Source of the DNA: a virus
DNA length: 40,650 bases
Reading direction: 5' to 3' (one strand)
IMG/VR virus record: IMGVR_UViG_3300050821_005132
Span: 1-40,650 of that record
The position numbers were made by a program, and so were the translations under genes. Numbering within the stretch: position 1 is the stretch's first letter; each line of letters begins with the position of its first letter. Below, piece after piece: positions 4,408 through 40,643 of the stretch. The notes beneath the pieces are model-generated. The model saw only the letters and a program-made list of their open reading frames with translations, was not told the DNA's origin and ran no database searches.

Positions 4408-6183
4408 ATGAAAAAAGAAACAGTGAAAACACCGCCTAATCCGGCAAAGACAGTAATGCAGAGTGTCAAGCTCTCTGATATTGTGATCGGAGACAGTAAT
4501 CCGAGAAAAGATTTCGATAAAGATGATATCGCCGAGCTGTCAGCCTCTATCAAAAATCAAGGAGTGCTGCAGCCCATTCTTCTCAGACCAAAGGGAAAGA
4601 AGTATGAACTCGTTTGTGGTGAGCGACGCATGAGGGCTTCCAAAGCTGCCGGCCTGATAGAAATCCCTGCCAATATCCGGACCCTTACCGATGATGAGGC
4701 ACTGGAGTGTCAGATCACCGAGAATCTCATGCGTAAGGATGTACACCCGATGGAAGAGGCTAATGCCTTTCAGGATCTCATCACCCGCAAAAAATGGAAG
4801 ATAGAGGAGTTGGCTAATCGGATCGGCAAATCAGCCACTTACATCGCTGGCCGCCTGAAGCTCAATGATCTCATCCCGGCATTCCAGAAGGCATTCTTCA
4901 AGGAACGGATGAGTCTTTCGGATGCACTCCGGGTATCACGGATCCATAAGAACTCTCAGGCTGAAATGTGGGAGGAGGATTTTTCCAATGATGAGGAGAT
5001 CGAAATAGACAGCCATTACCTCAAGAGTTACCAGGGGGATCTGTCTGATGCTCCTTTCGACACCAAGGATCCTGGCCTCAACAAAACAATGGGCTCCTGC
5101 GGATCCTGCCCGTTCAATTCAGCATCCAATACCCTTCTATTCCCTGAGGGCGGGAAAGCTATCTGCACGAATATCTCCTGCTTTTCTGGCAAGGCGAAAG
5201 CATCCTTTGATCAGCAGCTTAAAGCAGCTCTGAACGATCCTTCTGTCATCCTGGTAAGCGACAACTGGCAGTTTGAGGCTAAGGCTAAGGAGCTGATCTC
5301 GAAAGGCCATACCGTTCTCATTAAACGCAGTCTGACTATTCTTGAGGCTCCCGAAGCTCCGGAGATGGCTGATTTTGAAAGTAATCTAAAAGTGGGTGTT
5401 TTCGATACCAAGAAGGAAATGATGGAAGACTTCAAATCAGCTAAAGAAGATTACGAGAAGGAGCTGAAGGCTTACGAAAAGGAAAAGACTGCTGGCAAGC
5501 TCACCCGGGCCTTTGTGGTGGAGGGGGATGATGCCGGTAAGTACTGGCTGGTGAAAAAGAAATCAGAACCGGCTCCTGGGGCTAAGGCAACAACTGCTGG
5601 CGCCGTAAAAGAGAAGATCGCTGAAGGCAAAGCAACAAAGGCCGATATCGAGGGCGAGATTAAGCGCATCGAGGAGCGCCTGAAGCGATCCAACGAGATC
5701 GAGGATGGTGAGGTGAGGGATAAGGTGTTTGATCTGATTTGTGAAAACGAAGATGAATTCTTTGCCTTTAACATCAACAAGATGACAGGCCTGCAGGCAG
5801 CAATTGTTATCCTCAGTAACGAATGCCAAATGTACACTGATGAGTTCCAGAAAGCCATTGGTTTTGATGGGAGTGACGAGGATATGTGGGCCCATCTTTC
5901 CACAATGACCGATAAGCAGCTGGTGGATGCCATCGTTTCCATTTCCCGTTTTGTGGTGGTGGATTCATTCGCAATCAGTCAGGATCATGAATATCATGTC
6001 ATCGAAGCGATGGCTAAGGAGTTCAAAGGGGATGATGTTCAGGCTCTCCATGCGGAACAATCTAACAATGCTGTGGACCGTAAACTCAAAGCTGATAAAC
6101 GAATTGAGGCTATGAAGAAGGAACTTCCTGAACAGAAAAAAGGAAAAGGGCTCGCGGCTCTTTTGCCTGAGGCCAAAAAGTAA
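4408..6183 (+). CDS. Large ParB-like CTPase/DNA-binding protein
   Basis: This 591-residue protein has a full ParB/Spo0J N-terminal domain. Visible parts are LSDIVIGDSNPRKDFD, the GERRMRA CTP-binding motif (residues 71-77), ENLMRKDVHPMEEA (105-118) and an HTH (IEELANRIGKSATYIAGRL). A Cys cluster follows (CGSCPFN and a second CxxxxC) that may bind zinc. The second half is a long Lys/Glu-rich helical region ending in GKGLAALLPEAKK. No ParA ATPase is present, so classical partition is unlikely to be complete. Possible roles are a replication or transcription factor, or use of a host ParA. The gene ends 15 bases before a strong terminator. Confidence 0.85.
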   Translation: MKKETVKTPPNPAKTVMQSVKLSDIVIGDSNPRKDFDKDDIAELSASIKNQGVLQPILLRPKGKKYELVCGERRMRASKAAGLIEIPANIRTLTDDEALECQITENLMRKDVHPMEEANAFQDLITRKKWKIEELANRIGKSATYIAGRLKLNDLIPAFQKAFFKERMSLSDALRVSRIHKNSQAEMWEEDFSNDEEIEIDSHYLKSYQGDLSDAPFDTKDPGLNKTMGSCGSCPFNSASNTLLFPEGGKAICTNISCFSGKAKASFDQQLKAALNDPSVILVSDNWQFEAKAKELISKGHTVLIKRSLTILEAPEAPEMADFESNLKVGVFDTKKEMMEDFKSAKEDYEKELKAYEKEKTAGKLTRAFVVEGDDAGKYWLVKKKSEPAPGAKATTAGAVKEKIAEGKATKADIEGEIKRIEERLKRSNEIEDGEVRDKVFDLICENEDEFFAFNINKMTGLQAAIVILSNECQMYTDEFQKAIGFDGSDEDMWAHLSTMTDKQLVDAIVSISRFVVVDSFAISQDHEYHVIEAMAKEFKGDDVQALHAEQSNNAVDRKLKADKRIEAMKKELPEQKKGKGLAALLPEAKK

Positions 6184-6198
6184 AAACCTGCCATGGTT

Positions 6199-6232
6199 CC
6201 GGGAGAGTGAGGATAGCTTTCCCGGTTTTTTT
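6199..6232 (+). terminator. Intrinsic terminator after the ParB-like gene
   Basis: CCGGGA at 6199-6204 pairs with TCCCGG at 6220-6225. The stem extends inward by four more pairs including two wobbles, and a run of seven Ts follows at 6226-6232. It lies 15 bases after the stop codon and should end the replication operon. Confidence 0.85.
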
Positions 6233-6260
6233 ATATATTGCACTGCTGAAACTGACAAAA

Positions 6261-6350
6261 ATGAAGCAAGCTGTGAAAGAATCTTTAAAGTGGCTTATAA
6301 TCAAAATGATTGTAGCTGCTGCCATTATAGCAGTTTTTAAATGCACATAA
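6261..6350 (+). CDS. Tiny single-span membrane peptide
   Basis: A 29-residue ORF: a basic start (MKQAVKESLKW) followed by a hydrophobic stretch of about 15 residues (LIIKMIVAAAIIAVF) and a short KCT tail. This is the layout of a small inner-membrane peptide. It stands alone between a terminator and the folded noncoding segment, so it would need its own promoter in the 28-base gap. Its length makes chance possible. Confidence 0.35.
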   Translation: MKQAVKESLKWLIIKMIVAAAIIAVFKCT

Positions 6351-6556
6351 GGGGAAAGTGTCAGATGACAGCTGTCCCTGTCTGGATAATTGGGCTTTAG
6401 ATCTCTAACTGTATTGAGCCCCCGCTGCACCGCCCTGCAGTTTGTAAATGGTACAGGATGGGTAAAATCGGTGACACTTGAAAGCATCTTGCCGATTAAT
6501 CTATTTGAATGACTGACAGCAGGCAAAGACCGCTCCCTTCGGGGATAACTTTTTTA
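6351..6556 (+). ncRNA. Candidate structured RNA upstream of ninG
   Basis: No plus-strand ORF is visible here, yet the sequence folds well on paper. AAGTGTCA (6356-6363) pairs with TGACACTT (6472-6479). Inside it CCTGT (6377-6381) pairs with ACAGG (6453-6457). Within that junction lie two hairpins, GGGCT/AGCCC (6392-6396/6417-6421) and CTGCA/TGCAG (6425-6429/6436-6440). A further helix TTGCC/GGCAA (6489-6493/6522-6526) and a CCC-TTCG-GGG hairpin followed by six Ts come next. The nested order fits a multibranch RNA with a weak terminator. It could be a small RNA or a leader controlling ninG. The class is not recognised. Confidence 0.45.
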
Positions 6557-20413: not shown

Positions 20414-20445
20414 TATAAAAGCAAGGCCCCCCGTGTGGGAGGCCT
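20411..20445 (-). terminator. Minus-strand terminator of the reverse cassette
   Basis: AGGCC-x-CCC at 20424-20432 pairs with GGG-x-GGCCT at 20437-20445. On the minus strand the hairpin is followed by TTGCTTTTAT. It lies just after the last minus-strand gene and faces the plus-strand terminator next to it. Confidence 0.65.
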
Positions 20446-20700: not shown

Positions 20701-21091
20701 CAGATTGCTTTTGTTTTTTTAAATACATCTTTAGAATATTCCTTTCATGGAAGTTGAGTTTTTCTCCACGGCCTTCTTTATTTATGATGTTGACAGTATT
20801 CTGGAATTCCCTATTCCTTTCGGATTCCGTCTTTCTCTTCTTAATCTTATAAGAAGATGCTTTGTAATAACCCCGGCTAAGTATTCCGAAAAAATCACGT
20901 GGATTGAATTCTTCGTATACCATTAAATTCTGTGGCTCTAACATTTCAAAGGCAGGAGGAGTAATAGATTCTACAGCATGATCCATCATCTGTTTTATAT
21001 TTTCTTTTGTTATAATAGGAAAATGTCTGAAGGTATATGTAGAATCTTCTATCACTAGAATGTTTTTGAGTTTAAGGCCTTTAATACTCAT
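20687..21091 (-). CDS. Reverse cassette gene 4, basic protein with capsid-like peptide
   Basis: A 134-residue protein. The N-terminal 50 residues are mixed alpha/beta, and the last 60 are strongly basic and helical (KIKKRKTESERNREF, HERNILKMYLKKQKQ). Residues 53-67 (PQNLMVYEEFNPRDF) match residues 80-94 of this phage's major capsid protein (PQDVMVYKEINPRDF) at 11 of 15 positions. The matching DNA (20891-20935 minus, 23412-23456 plus) agrees at 35 of 45 bases in the same codon phase. The rest of the two proteins shows no clear similarity. It could mimic or bind a capsid interaction surface; no family recognised. Confidence 0.55.
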   Translation of the reverse strand: MSIKGLKLKNILVIEDSTYTFRHFPIITKENIKQMMDHAVESITPPAFEMLEPQNLMVYEEFNPRDFFGILSRGYYKASSYKIKKRKTESERNREFQNTVNIINKEGRGEKLNFHERNILKMYLKKQKQSDGQI

Positions 21092-21210: not shown

Positions 21211-21493
21211 CTGCCTCCTTTCTGTTTGGATCCACCCACGGCTCCAGATCAGACTCCTTCACCATGTAGACTCTTTCTGATTGTTTCCTCAGATAGGAGA
21301 AGTGCATGGCCATCACATGGTAAACAATTGCACACTCAATCCGGGTGGAGTTTGGAGCAATCCCTTCAGTATACATCCGGGCCAGTACTTTGTATTTCTC
21401 CTGGGGAGTGATGAGAGGGAGAGCGGTCCCGTCTACTTTCTGAGGTAAAGCCCTCACCAGGGCACCCAATTCATACTTAAAATTTAGTTCCAT
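21176..21493 (-). CDS. Reverse cassette gene 2, unknown
   Basis: A 105-residue protein with a well-formed globular look: ELGALVRALPQKVDGTALPL, KYKVLARMYTEGIAPNSTR, a CAIVYHVMAMHFSYL helix, a VYMVKESDLEPWV strand and an acidic tail. I could not place it in a family. It overlaps genes 1 and 3 of the cassette (17 and 35 bases), so the five genes form one compact operon. Confidence 0.55.
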   Translation of the reverse strand: MELNFKYELGALVRALPQKVDGTALPLITPQEKYKVLARMYTEGIAPNSTRIECAIVYHVMAMHFSYLRKQSERVYMVKESDLEPWVDPNRKEADEETEKPGSED

Positions 21494-21686
21494 TGTCTGC
21501 TTTTTTTTGTGTTAATGAATTTTCATACAGTTTAAGGAGCTGGTCCTGTTCTGCTTCAGGTATTGCGTTGATCATCTGAATAGCCCCTCTCCTGACTATC
21601 TCACATTCGCTGCATCCATTTTTAAAAGCAAGGCCTCCTATAATTTTTGAATGCCTGGAGGAGAAAGTCGGATTGATTCGGGCCAT
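21477..21686 (-). CDS. Reverse cassette gene 1, small CxxC protein
   Basis: A 69-residue protein from the ATG at 21686; the frame is open to an ATG at 21716 but that start overlaps the promoter-like box, so the shorter form is preferred. It has a basic, Gly-rich start (INPTFSSRHSKIIGGLAF), a CSEC pair and a helical tail (EAEQDQLLKLYENSL). First gene of the minus-strand cassette. Function unknown. Confidence 0.5.
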   Translation of the reverse strand: MARINPTFSSRHSKIIGGLAFKNGCSECEIVRRGAIQMINAIPEAEQDQLLKLYENSLTQKKADNGTKF

Positions 21687-21752: not shown

Positions 21753-23114
21753 ATGAAGGACTTTCCCATATATCCACAAACATCTTCTCTCAGGCTCCCA
21801 TACTGTGAGTACCTTGATTCTGCTGAGCCGGAGATGTATTTGACGGATGATATTGGAAAGAATCCTGATGGATCCGGTATAGATTGTGAATTATTTTCCC
21901 GTACACTCATGACTCTTGACCAGATCGCTCAGGAAAAAGGGTACAAAAGAATCTGTATCTATATCAACAGTGGAGGTGGAGAAGTTGAAACCGGCATGAG
22001 TATCTATGATGCCATCCTCAATGTAACGATTCCAGTTGATACCTATGTCACCGGTCGGGCTGCTTCCATGGCCGGTGTTATTTTTCAGGCAGGCAGAAAG
22101 CGCTTCATGGCAGAATATGCTCAGCTTATGCTTCATAATCCTTCCGGTACCTCCAATGAGAAACAGATTGAAGCAGCAAAAAAATCTCTTGTAAAAATGC
22201 TTTCCCGTCATGGAATATCCGAAAAGAAAATTTCCACATTGATGGATGATGAGAGCTGGATCCTGGCAGACAAATGTAAACCTCTCGGCCTCTGTGATGA
22301 GGTCATTGATATTTCCAAATTAAACAATAAAACTCCAGAGCATAAAGTGCTATGGAATCAATTTGAAACCGTTACCAATTCACTTGCAAAAACAAAAACC
22401 ATGAAAAATATTGCTTTGGCCCTGGGCCTTTCTGAAACCGCTACAGAAAACGAAATCAAAGAAAAGGCTGCACTCCTCAATATGGATGTGAAGGATGGCA
22501 AACTGGTAGCTAAAGACAAAAAGAAAAAAGAAGATGAGGAAGAAGATGATGAGGAAGGTGAAGGTGAAGACAAGGGTGGTAAATCCAAAAATGCAGAATA
22601 TCCTTCCAAAAAGGAGCATGATGCACTCTGCAAAATGGTAGAGAAGCATGGAAAACGTCTGGATAAGATGGAAGAGAAGATGAAAAACCAGGCTGAAGCA
22701 GAGATGACAAACAAAGTAGAGAACAAAATCAATGCTTTGATCGCATCCGGAAAGCTTAAAAATGAAGAAGCCCTGGTGACCAAAGCACGTGCTTCTTTGA
22801 CTGCTGCTTTTGATGTAGCTGCTGAAGTATATGATATGCTTCCTGGTACTGTGAATGCAGGAGGAAATGGCAATGTGATAAAGCTGGGATCAACCCGCAT
22901 CAATCAGCTGATCGAAACTGCATCTGCAGAGAACAAAGAGAACAAAGAAAAGACTGATCTTGCTGTGAAAGTAGAGCCAGCCACCTCTTTGTCTGCAGAA
23001 ACCCTGACAGATCATGTGAATCATGGTGATTACGTGACACCTGTATCTCCTGCAGCAACTGTGAAACGTCCTAACATCCGGGATGCTAAAGCAGAAATTT
23101 CTAAAGGAAAATAA
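21753..23114 (+). CDS. Fused ClpP-like head protease and scaffold
   Basis: This 453-residue protein combines a ClpP-type prohead protease (residues 1-190) with a scaffold-like tail. The serine nucleophile is S105 in GRAASMAG, the His is H128 in LMLHNPSG, and D173 in WILADKCKPLGLCDEV is the likely third member. INSGGGEVETGMSIYDAI is the oxyanion segment. From M217 (base 22401) a helical, very acidic region (KKEDEEEDDEEGEGED) and a coiled coil follow. In Mu-like phages the scaffold is also made from an internal start; M217 would suit that role here. The next gene is the major capsid protein. Confidence 0.88.
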   Translation: MKDFPIYPQTSSLRLPYCEYLDSAEPEMYLTDDIGKNPDGSGIDCELFSRTLMTLDQIAQEKGYKRICIYINSGGGEVETGMSIYDAILNVTIPVDTYVTGRAASMAGVIFQAGRKRFMAEYAQLMLHNPSGTSNEKQIEAAKKSLVKMLSRHGISEKKISTLMDDESWILADKCKPLGLCDEVIDISKLNNKTPEHKVLWNQFETVTNSLAKTKTMKNIALALGLSETATENEIKEKAALLNMDVKDGKLVAKDKKKKEDEEEDDEEGEGEDKGGKSKNAEYPSKKEHDALCKMVEKHGKRLDKMEEKMKNQAEAEMTNKVENKINALIASGKLKNEEALVTKARASLTAAFDVAAEVYDMLPGTVNAGGNGNVIKLGSTRINQLIETASAENKENKEKTDLAVKVEPATSLSAETLTDHVNHGDYVTPVSPAATVKRPNIRDAKAEISKGK

Positions 23115-23174: not shown

Positions 23175-24167
23175 ATGAATGACACGCTCGCAATTTTAGA
23201 TACCAAATACGCTGGAGATCAGCAAGCTTTCTGGTGGCCACGTGCTACCGTCACCATGACCACAGTGGCAAAGAATGCTGTCCTGGCCATTGACGGTATC
23301 AAAAAAGAGACTACCGTGACCACTCTGGACACTGACATGCCTCTCCAGGACCGTCAGCCTGAGCCAGTAAGTGATGATAACCTCATCAACGTGGATGGCC
23401 GTACTGTATTTCCACAGGACGTGATGGTGTACAAAGAAATTAACCCACGTGACTTTGAAGCTCACTGGAATGCTGTAAATCTTTCCAAAGTGTTGCTGGC
23501 ACGTGAACTGCCTGCCACTGCAGCTGCCTTCATCACCTCTCAGGTCCTGCGGAGATCCTTCCAGTATCTGGATCAGTGTGTATGGATTGGAAGTACTGCC
23601 TATAAAGGCAATGTGGCCAAAACTGATGTACGTAGCCAATATAAATTTTTCAATGGCTATCTGCAGCGGATGGTGAATGATGCCCTGGTACAATCTGTTG
23701 CCGGTGTCACCACCTTCTCGACCTCCAATATCATTGGTTACATGCAGAGCTGTATCACCCAGTGTGATATTTTCCTGAAAGCAAATCCAGCGAAATATGA
23801 GCGCCTGCGTTTTGCCATGAACCCAAACAGCAAAACCCTGTTTGATCAGGCATTGTCAATCGGTACCACATACAAGAATGATAATTACATGGTGAAAGGC
23901 CAGAATTACTTCCAGGGCTATGAGATCATAGAGCTGTATGGTATTCCTGACAATACCATTGTATTTGGTGAATTCATTGATGATGGCACTGGAAATTTTG
24001 CCCTGGGAATGAATGCCTTTGAAGACATGCAGCTGGAGCTTATGCGTAAACAGAATAACGCGGAGACCTGGTTTGTAAAAGGCCTATTCAAAATGGATGT
24101 GAATTATGGATGGGGCGCTCAGATCGTTCTTGCCACCACCCTTACTGCTAATAGCTTCCTCCCTTAA
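23175..24167 (+). CDS. Major capsid protein
   Basis: A 330-residue protein directly after the protease/scaffold gene, as expected of the HK97-fold major capsid protein. Notable segments are the FPQDVMVYKEINPRDFEAHW stretch (79-98), a long helix region (LARELPATAAAFITSQVLRR), the YLQRMVNDALVQSV turn, ANPAKYERLRFAMNPNSK (P-domain-like) and a C-terminal FKMDVNYGWGAQIV strand. There is no sign of an N-terminal delta domain, fitting a separate scaffold. Its 60-base leader is A-rich with no Shine-Dalgarno. Part of the 79-98 segment recurs in a minus-strand gene. Confidence 0.85.
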   Translation: MNDTLAILDTKYAGDQQAFWWPRATVTMTTVAKNAVLAIDGIKKETTVTTLDTDMPLQDRQPEPVSDDNLINVDGRTVFPQDVMVYKEINPRDFEAHWNAVNLSKVLLARELPATAAAFITSQVLRRSFQYLDQCVWIGSTAYKGNVAKTDVRSQYKFFNGYLQRMVNDALVQSVAGVTTFSTSNIIGYMQSCITQCDIFLKANPAKYERLRFAMNPNSKTLFDQALSIGTTYKNDNYMVKGQNYFQGYEIIELYGIPDNTIVFGEFIDDGTGNFALGMNAFEDMQLELMRKQNNAETWFVKGLFKMDVNYGWGAQIVLATTLTANSFLP

Positions 24168-35636: not shown

Positions 35637-35972
35637 ATGAAATCTATTAAACATTCTATTTTCACAAACTGGAGGACCTCTTTGATGGGATTTGGTACTG
35701 CACTTATATTGAAAGTGTGGCCAATGATCGAAGCCGGACAGGTAGATCCAAAAGGTTTGGCAATTGCTGCCTTTATTACGCTGTGGGGATTCGTGTCAAA
35801 AGATGCAATGGTCTCCGGACTACCCTCTGCAGATAAAGTGCTTTCTATAGGCAAGCGCCTGGTAAATGCCTGGAAAGCGCTCAGTGGAAAAAATCTCACT
35901 GAGATAGTTCCTACAGCTGAAGCTATCCTGACAGCAATCGAAACACAAAACGCGGAGGACAAGAAATCATGA
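35637..35972 (+). CDS. Second holin-like / lysis-associated membrane protein
   Basis: A 111-residue protein with two hydrophobic stretches near the N-terminus (WRTSLMGFGTALILKVWPMI, GLAIAAFITLWGFVSK) and an amphipathic, charged C-terminal half. This resembles small membrane proteins found next to lysis genes in Bacteroidota phages. Could be a second holin, an antiholin or a spanin-like factor. Its stop overlaps the patatin start by ATGA. Confidence 0.5.
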   Translation: MKSIKHSIFTNWRTSLMGFGTALILKVWPMIEAGQVDPKGLAIAAFITLWGFVSKDAMVSGLPSADKVLSIGKRLVNAWKALSGKNLTEIVPTAEAILTAIETQNAEDKKS

Positions 35973-36829
35973 TGAGAGATATCAGAAATTTATCCTTTGA
36001 AGGTGGTGGTGTAAAAGGGATGGCTTATGCCGGTTTCATTTTCGGCCTCGAGGAGGCAGCTATTATGAAAAATATCCTTCAGGTAGCCGGTACTTCAGCC
36101 GGTGCCATTACTGCTGCCCTGGTATCTCTTCGATATACTGCAGGAGAAATACATGATATCATGATGAAGACGGATTTCAGCACCTTTGAAGATTCAGAAA
36201 ATCCTTTTCGCATTGCCACTCAATATGGAATTTATCAGGGAGATGTGTTTCTATCCTGGATGAAGGAACGAATCAAAGGAATGATCAGCACTCCAGATGC
36301 TACTTTTGCAGAGTTTGAAAAAGCAGGATGTATAGATCTCCACATATTTGCTTATGATGTAACAGATGAAAGACTGATACGATTTTGTGCAAAAACTACT
36401 CCGCAGGTTATAGTAGCTGAAGCCGTGAGAGCTTCCATGTCGATTCCTTTCTTCTTCAAAGGTTTTCAATTCTCTACCGGCCATCCCAATGATCATATCC
36501 ACGTGGATGGTGGAACTGTTTATAATTATCCGGTGGATGCTTTTGATACAGATGGTCCTAATCCACAAACATTGGGAGCTTTCCTGAGAGGTGTCCCTTC
36601 TCCTGCAGGGGTTAGGTATAATGAACTGATAAAATTCACCAGGAGCATATTTAATGGCATCCTGGATAGCCAGAATATAAATCTATATACCAATAAGGAA
36701 CAGCTGGCCCGGACGGTCCAGATCCCCTCCCTGGGAATATCTGCCACTGACTTTAGCCTCACCGGTGATCAGAAGCAAGCGCTTTATGATTCTGGTCTGG
36801 CTTCTATCCGGTCCTTCCTATTGGCATAA
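35969..36829 (+). CDS. Patatin-like phospholipase
   Basis: This 286-residue protein is a patatin-family lipid acyl hydrolase. The oxyanion loop is GGGVKG (residues 12-17), the nucleophile Ser43 lies in GTSAG (41-45), and the catalytic Asp is D180 in HVDGGTVYNYP. All dyad motifs are intact. It is the last gene of the lysis cassette, coupled by ATGA to the membrane protein before it, and a terminator follows. Probable role: cutting phospholipids at lysis, perhaps of the outer membrane; effects on a new host or on superinfection are alternatives. Confidence 0.88.
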   Translation: MMRDIRNLSFEGGGVKGMAYAGFIFGLEEAAIMKNILQVAGTSAGAITAALVSLRYTAGEIHDIMMKTDFSTFEDSENPFRIATQYGIYQGDVFLSWMKERIKGMISTPDATFAEFEKAGCIDLHIFAYDVTDERLIRFCAKTTPQVIVAEAVRASMSIPFFFKGFQFSTGHPNDHIHVDGGTVYNYPVDAFDTDGPNPQTLGAFLRGVPSPAGVRYNELIKFTRSIFNGILDSQNINLYTNKEQLARTVQIPSLGISATDFSLTGDQKQALYDSGLASIRSFLLA

Positions 36830-39818: not shown

Positions 39819-40643
39819 ATGACCAAACCAAAATTTTCAGCCTTTCATGGCAAACAGGAAATCAAAGACAAGTATATTGCCCGTATGAAGGCCCACATGA
39901 TAGCTGATGAGCTAGTGCAGGGTACTGGCTTTGATAAATCAGAAAACAAAGGATGTGCAGTAGGGTGTACCCTTGACAACTATTCTCACTTCGATTATGA
40001 AAAGGAGTTAGGTATTCCTTTCACCATTGCAATTTTAGAAGACAACATTTTTGAATCACTTAAAGTTGAAAAGGCGCTTTCTTTTCCGCTCGAATTTCTG
40101 CAGTCTGTAAATGTTGGTTGTGATCTTTCTTTAGTTTATAATAAATTAGAAATGTGGAGTTTGATTGATGAAACACATGGATTAATTACCAGGTTGAAAA
40201 CCGATAAAGAGAAGAAAATCTGTTCTGATTTGGCAGCGCTTCATCTTAGAGTGATTGAAGAAAAAGAAGTGGGTGAGGGTGAATGGAAAAAATTATATAA
40301 CCTGGCAGACCTGGCAGACCGGGCAGACCTGGCAGACCGGGCATACCTGGCATACCGGGCATACCTGGCATACCGGGCAGACCGGGCAGACCTGGCAGAC
40401 CGGGCATACCTGGCATACCGGGCATACCGGGCAGACCTGGCAGACCGGGCAGACCGGGCAGACCGGGCATACCGGGCAGACCGGGCAGACCGGGCAGACC
40501 GGGCAGACCTGGCAGACCGGGCATACCGGGCATACCGGGCATACCTGGCATACCGGGCAGACCGGGCAGACCGGGCAGACCGGGCAGACCGGGCAGACCC
40601 AATGCGTGAAAAATTTATTCAGTTAATAAAAGAAACACACTAA
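39819..40643 (+). CDS. Phage protein with 33-unit tripeptide repeat
   Basis: The first 162 residues form a conserved-looking domain ([40 protein letters not shown], then [20 protein letters not shown]) that I recognise from other phages, where it also carries an Ala-rich repetitive tail. Here the tail is 33 in-frame copies of Ala-(Asp/Tyr)-(Arg/Leu), ending in ADP and a short [13 protein letters not shown] helix. Copy-number changes of the 9-bp unit would keep the frame, so the tail can vary in length without loss of the protein. Function unknown. Confidence 0.7.
40305..40601 (+). repeat. 33-copy 9-bp tandem repeat with two G/T sites
   Basis: The unit is GCA-kAC-CkG, where k is G or T, so each unit encodes Ala-(Asp or Tyr)-(Arg or Leu). 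The last unit is GCAGACCCA. I count nine Leu units. Each is followed by an Arg unit with the same Asp/Tyr choice, showing an 18-bp higher-order unit. No other base varies in the first 32 units. On the minus strand the same array reads Gly-(Leu/Met)-Pro. Confidence 0.9.

Follow-up and report, generated by a model that had tools for sequence, protein, structure and literature searches.

A small protein with a conserved capsid motif in a phage accessory cassette, a candidate mimic of capsid interfaces

Part of a capsid protein can serve as a recognised defence signal, as in the Lit/Gol system. Interference with virion assembly has so far been known from satellites, which use scaffold mimics, and from one prophage protein, Tab. 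The satellite protein CpmB has an RIIK motif in common with the scaffold protein (PMC5644958), and Rcm, which binds the major capsid protein (MCP), is a proposed competitor of the scaffold (PMC12409344). Tab is a prophage accessory protein that blocks the tail assembly of invading phages (PMC10884400). Outside phages, capsid or nucleocapsid gene fragments or their relatives (Fv1, enJSRV Gag and itEBLN) inhibit related viruses, some of them by disturbing assembly (PMC6361761). The capsid surfaces that matter here have been described for phage 80alpha, where E-loops and A-domains are the primary contacts within the pentamers and hexamers of the procapsid (PMC5644958).

We analysed a stretch of 40,650 nucleotides from IMG/VR record IMGVR_UViG_3300050821_005132 (the window). 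Between its tail-fibre and head genes lies a cassette of four minus-strand genes whose content is variable (Table 1). One of them encodes a small protein that contains a capsid motif. Codon usage of this gene is coding-like, with 0.25 bits per codon in frame and negative values in the five other frames, and its GC content is 32% vs 43% for the window and 46% for the phage's own MCP gene. On its coding-like frame, low GC, overlap with the next gene and position in a terminator-closed cassette, it looks like a genuine accessory gene. We identified the MCP of this phage from the position of its gene directly after that of a ClpP-type protease and from its AlphaFold2 (AF2) model, whose best Foldseek matches were HK97-fold capsids (E about 1e-10).

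Table 1. Features of the minus-strand cassette and of the adjoining head genes, in positions of the window.
Feature	Position	Strand	Basis
Terminator-like hairpin, 9 pairs with a T-rich tail, closing the cassette	20424–20445	−	sequence
Next cassette gene, 74 aa	20476–20700	−	shares 14 bases with the end of the motif gene
Small cassette protein with capsid motif, 134 aa	20687–21091	−	open frame, codon usage, gene overlap
Residues 51–68 of the small protein, LEPQNLMVYEEFNPRDFF, capsid E-loop-base motif	20888–20941	−	hhalign, HMMER, shuffles
Residues 53–67 of the small protein, PQNLMVYEEFNPRDF	20891–20935	−	
Residues 11–68 of the small protein, possible in-register relict of a whole E-loop (IED..P.I...N..Q...LEPQ)	20888–21061	−	phmmer, shuffle test
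Cassette gene, 105 aa	21176–21493	−	common to the L004 and L005 cassettes, 33–37% identity
First cassette gene, 69 aa from ATG at 21686	21477–21686	−	open frame
Head maturation protease (ClpP type), first head-module gene beside the cassette	21753–23114	+	PF00574 E 9e-27; phrog_94 E 3e-31
Major capsid protein, HK97 fold	23175–24167	+	AF2 pLDDT 77; Foldseek; phrog_11320 E 3e-30
MCP residues 80–94, PQDVMVYKEINPRDF: strand 81–89 after the E-loop hairpin, and short helix 91–94	23412–23456	+	DSSP on AF2 model

Three other genes of the window deserve mention in their own right. Positions 4408–6183 (+) encode a protein with ParB_N and HTH_ParB domains that is unusual in its length, 591 aa; no partition genes were recognised in this phage. 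A patatin-like phospholipase (PF01734, E 9e-30) is encoded late in the genome at 35969–36829 (+) and is possibly related to lysis. The 274-aa protein encoded at 39819–40643 (+) has a C-terminal half made up of a long run of a short repeat of the A-D/Y-x-A-D/Y-R type.

The preliminary description of this DNA had reported that residues 53–67 of the small protein match residues 80–94 of the MCP at 11 of 15 positions and at 35 of 45 bases in the same codon phase, with several of the base differences at third positions and with the rest of the two proteins unrelated by eye. Recomputation returned the same two counts. The ten base differences were distributed 4/0/6 over codon positions 1, 2 and 3, and only residues 50–67 aligned to the MCP. 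In an all-against-all BLASTP of the whole window, the pair stood out with an E value of about 4e-4; its best ungapped score was 66, and the maximum in 400 shuffles was 48. The match also withstood the two checks that had been suggested at the outset, namely profile alignment to the capsid proteins of related phages and comparison with shuffled sequences. For the profiles, MCPs were collected from related phages located via their tail sheath, plus other searches. The small protein matched MCPs in hhalign with E values of 2.6e-7 (8 MCPs) and 3.4e-8 (37 MCPs), and HMMER aligned its residues 50–67 to columns 78–95 of a 58-MCP profile with 17.5–17.8 bits. The highest score in 20,000 shuffles was 12.4 bits. 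The capsid-motif match is well beyond chance.

The matched stretch turned out to be a motif of the whole capsid family, LxPQDxMxYxEFNPRD[FY], or LxPQDxMxYxEFNPRD[FY]ExHW in its longer form, which is among the most conserved MCP stretches. In 37 MCPs, P80, P91 and E95 were invariant, and conservation of D82, M84, Y86, E88, F89, N90 and R92 was at least 90%. In the AF2 model of the MCP, the stretch forms the base of the E-loop and precedes the long P-domain helix. The small protein has this E-loop-base motif of an HK97-fold MCP. However, the complete fold (N-arm, E-loop, P-domain spine helix and A-domain) was not found in it, residues 50–67 being the only part that aligned. Only 18 residues of its 134 match MCPs. 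Since the full fold is absent and the remainder of the protein is without MCP similarity, the small protein is not a capsid protein. A single-sequence AF2 model of it was poor (pLDDT 42).

The first comparison had been made with the phage's own MCP, and the small protein is closer to the family consensus than that MCP is. At L51, L56 and F61 the small protein keeps to the consensus, from which its own MCP departs. Ranked by fit to the small protein, the own MCP came 28th of 57, and the best was that of L086. Over 51 bases, 37 were identical to the own MCP gene and 38 to those of L063 and L083. Where the small protein and its own MCP have the same residue, the codons agree in 8 of 11 cases vs 5.7 expected. 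Recent copying of the neighbouring MCP gene is therefore unsupported, because the DNA match to it is no better than that to other MCP genes, and we rejected such an event on the grounds that synonymous agreement is at expectation and MCPs of other clades are closer. Of the two ideas put forward earlier, that the small protein, otherwise unrelated to capsids, contains a peptide derived from or mimicking a capsid is upheld by the profiles and shuffles, whereas a recent DNA copy of the adjacent capsid gene finds no support in the codons or in the MCPs of other clades, which fit better.

The likeness shows no mark of recent DNA copying; it lies in the protein sequence and is either old or derived from a foreign source. 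As far as sequence goes, the similarity of the small protein to MCPs appears at the level of the motif, and common descent is unprovable over 18 residues. Some phmmer alignments extended to residues 11–67 of the small protein (e.g., with the L086 MCP), nearly in the register of the E-loop, and a register-constrained shuffle test of this extension gave p values of 0.002–0.01. Residues 1–50 alone gave no significant signal in a free-alignment profile search. Descent of residues 11–68 from a whole E-loop is suggestive only.

Relatives of the small protein were sought widely. It had no family match in Pfam, NCBIfam or PADLOC, and no PADLOC anti-phage defence model matched. A weak relationship to phrog_13120 (E 0.01–0.02) was rejected, having been lost when the motif and the C-terminal part were searched separately. 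A peptide-pattern search of IMG/VR for homologues returned only an MCP, and DNA patterns of the motif in the same database yielded no homologue and one unrelated sulfatase. Searching phages and plasmids with tblastn gave only MCPs or weak matches, and a search of genome contigs found no homologue. In another 39 full records of viruses or phages, all matches fell within frames of 300 or more amino acids, again with no homologue. A scan with 26 window-protein profiles, one of them for the protease together with its C-terminal region, revealed no scaffold-type motif in the small protein; the MCP profile was the only one to match.

A scan for more phages that carry the cassette found two sister phages only, L004 and L005, whose MCPs are about 67% identical to that of the window. 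The equivalent minus-strand cassette of L004 contains a second capsid-like gene (L004:6008–6271, −). Its 87-aa product matches the MCP A-domain over its whole length, aligning to columns 178–261 of the MCP profile with 17.1 bits (maximum 7.1 in 5,000 shuffles), with an hhalign E value of 1.7e-4 and with 18.9 bits against an A-domain-only profile. The closest single MCP was that of L014, and L004's own MCP came 16th of 52. As with the small protein, no homologues of the L004 protein were found. Its gene overlaps both neighbours, one of which is the homologue of the 105-aa cassette gene of the window, and a terminator follows. Both capsid-like genes are low in GC and stand in overlapping minus-strand runs with terminators. 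When the 26 window-protein profiles, mostly structural, were run on every cassette ORF from L004, L005 and the window, only the small protein and the L004 protein had matches with E <0.003, both to the MCP profile. No capsid-like gene was detected in L005 with the MCP and A-domain profiles or in the 26-profile scan. That the L004 cassette has a second capsid-like protein makes a capsid-related role under selection more likely than an isolated fragment.

Several weaker resemblances were recorded in the same phages. The protein common to the three cassettes (also at L004:5619–6011, −, and L005:3604–4167, −) consists of two tandem domain copies in its L005 version. A helix common to residues 26–41 of the small protein and the L004 protein (p 0.037) was not used. 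L074:4254–4472 (+), a small ORF near baseplate genes, matched MCP columns 192–230 with 11.0 bits, a borderline score among 13,779 ORFs; we considered this ORF and L018:6711–6950 too weak to claim as further capsid-like genes. At the start of its contig, L035:1–636 (+) has MCP-like sequence (MCP residues about 176–266) running straight into unrelated sequence; L035 also has an intact MCP gene at 5449–6474, and positions 1–636 reflect either a gene chimera or an error of assembly.

The E-loop and the A-domain, the main capsomer contacts of 80alpha, are the same two capsid parts that we found here. Interface mimicry is our best reading. We put at about 40% the probability that the small proteins of the window and L004 are mimics of MCP interfaces and, by binding capsid subunits, alter or poison assembly; this function is inferred. 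Presented on its own, an E-loop base or an A-domain surface would occupy the site normally taken by the E-loop or A-domain of a neighbouring subunit. Such docking on capsid subunits could slow head assembly or divert it; more likely, it would poison capsomers of a competitor that infects the same cell. Action on the heads of other phages is favoured because non-self MCPs fit better, the setting is accessory and the gene is absent from the sister phages. A more specific version, that the cassette recruits foreign pieces of capsid (the E-loop motif here, the A-domain in L004) as dominant-negative capsomer poisons against competing phages, is a doubtful proposition for now.

Other accounts of the match have to be weighed against interface mimicry. 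Chance resemblance of two unrelated segments could draw on the shortness of the matched segment, on its selection from many windows read and on its fit to a common strand-helix pattern. However, none of the 20,000 shuffles reached the score, and the column-reversed MCP profile gave at most 9.2 bits among 13,779 ORFs, against 17.5 bits for the true profile. The match also falls on the conserved motif of the family, where the small protein is closer to the consensus than the MCP first compared is, and a sister cassette has a second capsid-like gene. We rejected chance on the shuffles and the reversed profile and regard it as very improbable. It is unlikely, but deserves to be taken seriously, that the gene is a fragment of another phage's capsid gene acquired by illegitimate recombination, either functionless or recently repurposed, whose surviving motif has no role. 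The better match of non-self MCPs and the GC content so far below that of the own MCP gene agree with such an origin, as does the failure to find homologues, one capsid stretch alone being recognisable. Yet the frame is intact, codon usage is host-like, and the gene has both its overlap and its terminator. The flanks have diverged past recognition and the motif has not, and another capsid part is present in the sister cassette of L004.

Two further accounts give the small protein another task. As a decoy, it would show the capsid motif to a capsid-sensing host defence without full activation and so titrate the sensor. Sensors of this sort read features of the kind that a highly conserved capsid motif offers. 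Escape of phi80alpha from Thoeris maps to W84 in the E-loop and V273 in the P-loop of the capsid protein (PMC11312562), an MCP directly triggers CapRel-SJ46 (PMC9712102), and the low-GC accessory cassette would suit such a gene. We consider this clearly unlikely, as the proposed target of Sau-Thoeris is the capsid hexamer and not an isolated E-loop (PMC11312562), a protein bearing the motif could trigger the sensor instead of blocking it, and the L004 A-domain would need another sensor. Quite improbable, to our reading, is that the small protein binds its own capsid or scaffold and controls the timing, form or size of the head. Its gene adjoins the protease–MCP module, transcription from the opposite strand permits separate timing, and small satellite proteins that compete for capsid contacts, CpmB and Rcm, control head form (PMC5644958, PMC12409344). 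However, foreign MCPs fit the motif better than its own, and the gene is missing from L004 and L005 despite their similar MCPs. Because these relatives lack it, the motif gene is not needed for head assembly.

If interface mimicry is confirmed, small phage proteins built round the MCP's own interface parts would represent a new principle, and they would reveal capsid surfaces, the E-loop base and the A-domain, that are vulnerable to competition. If the foreign-piece version is also true, it would be the phage counterpart of Gag-derived restriction in animals. Whatever the function, it merits follow-up that two sister phages each have a small capsid-like gene in the corresponding cassette. We know of no described case of a phage gene that consists of a separate part of an MCP, and our search of the open literature found none.

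Among known systems, CpmB and Rcm of the SaPIs resemble the proteins described here in being small accessory proteins thought to act via shared capsid-contact surfaces. They differ in being scaffold-like and satellite-borne, whereas here the motif is the MCP's own and lies in a phage genome. We do not claim the small protein as a redirector of the CpmB or Rcm type because it has no detectable motif in common with the protease/scaffold protein. CapRel-SJ46, Sau-Thoeris and Lit offer a likeness in that conserved capsid parts act as recognised signals (PMC9712102 and PMC11312562 for CapRel-SJ46 and Sau-Thoeris). In those systems the trigger is the real capsid protein, whereas here a separate gene bears the motif. 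Fv1, enJSRV Gag and itEBLN belong to animal genomes and comprise large portions of Gag or N; here there are two small phage genes, each with a single capsid part and a role that is only predicted. Tab, like the small protein in its putative role, is a phage-encoded accessory protein that acts on virion assembly. However, its target is tail assembly, it has no known capsid motif, and it is expressed constitutively from a prophage; no lysogeny genes were recognised among the annotated proteins of the window. By analogy, the small protein may at best work as a dominant negative of capsid origin or in the manner of Tab, which blocks assembly.
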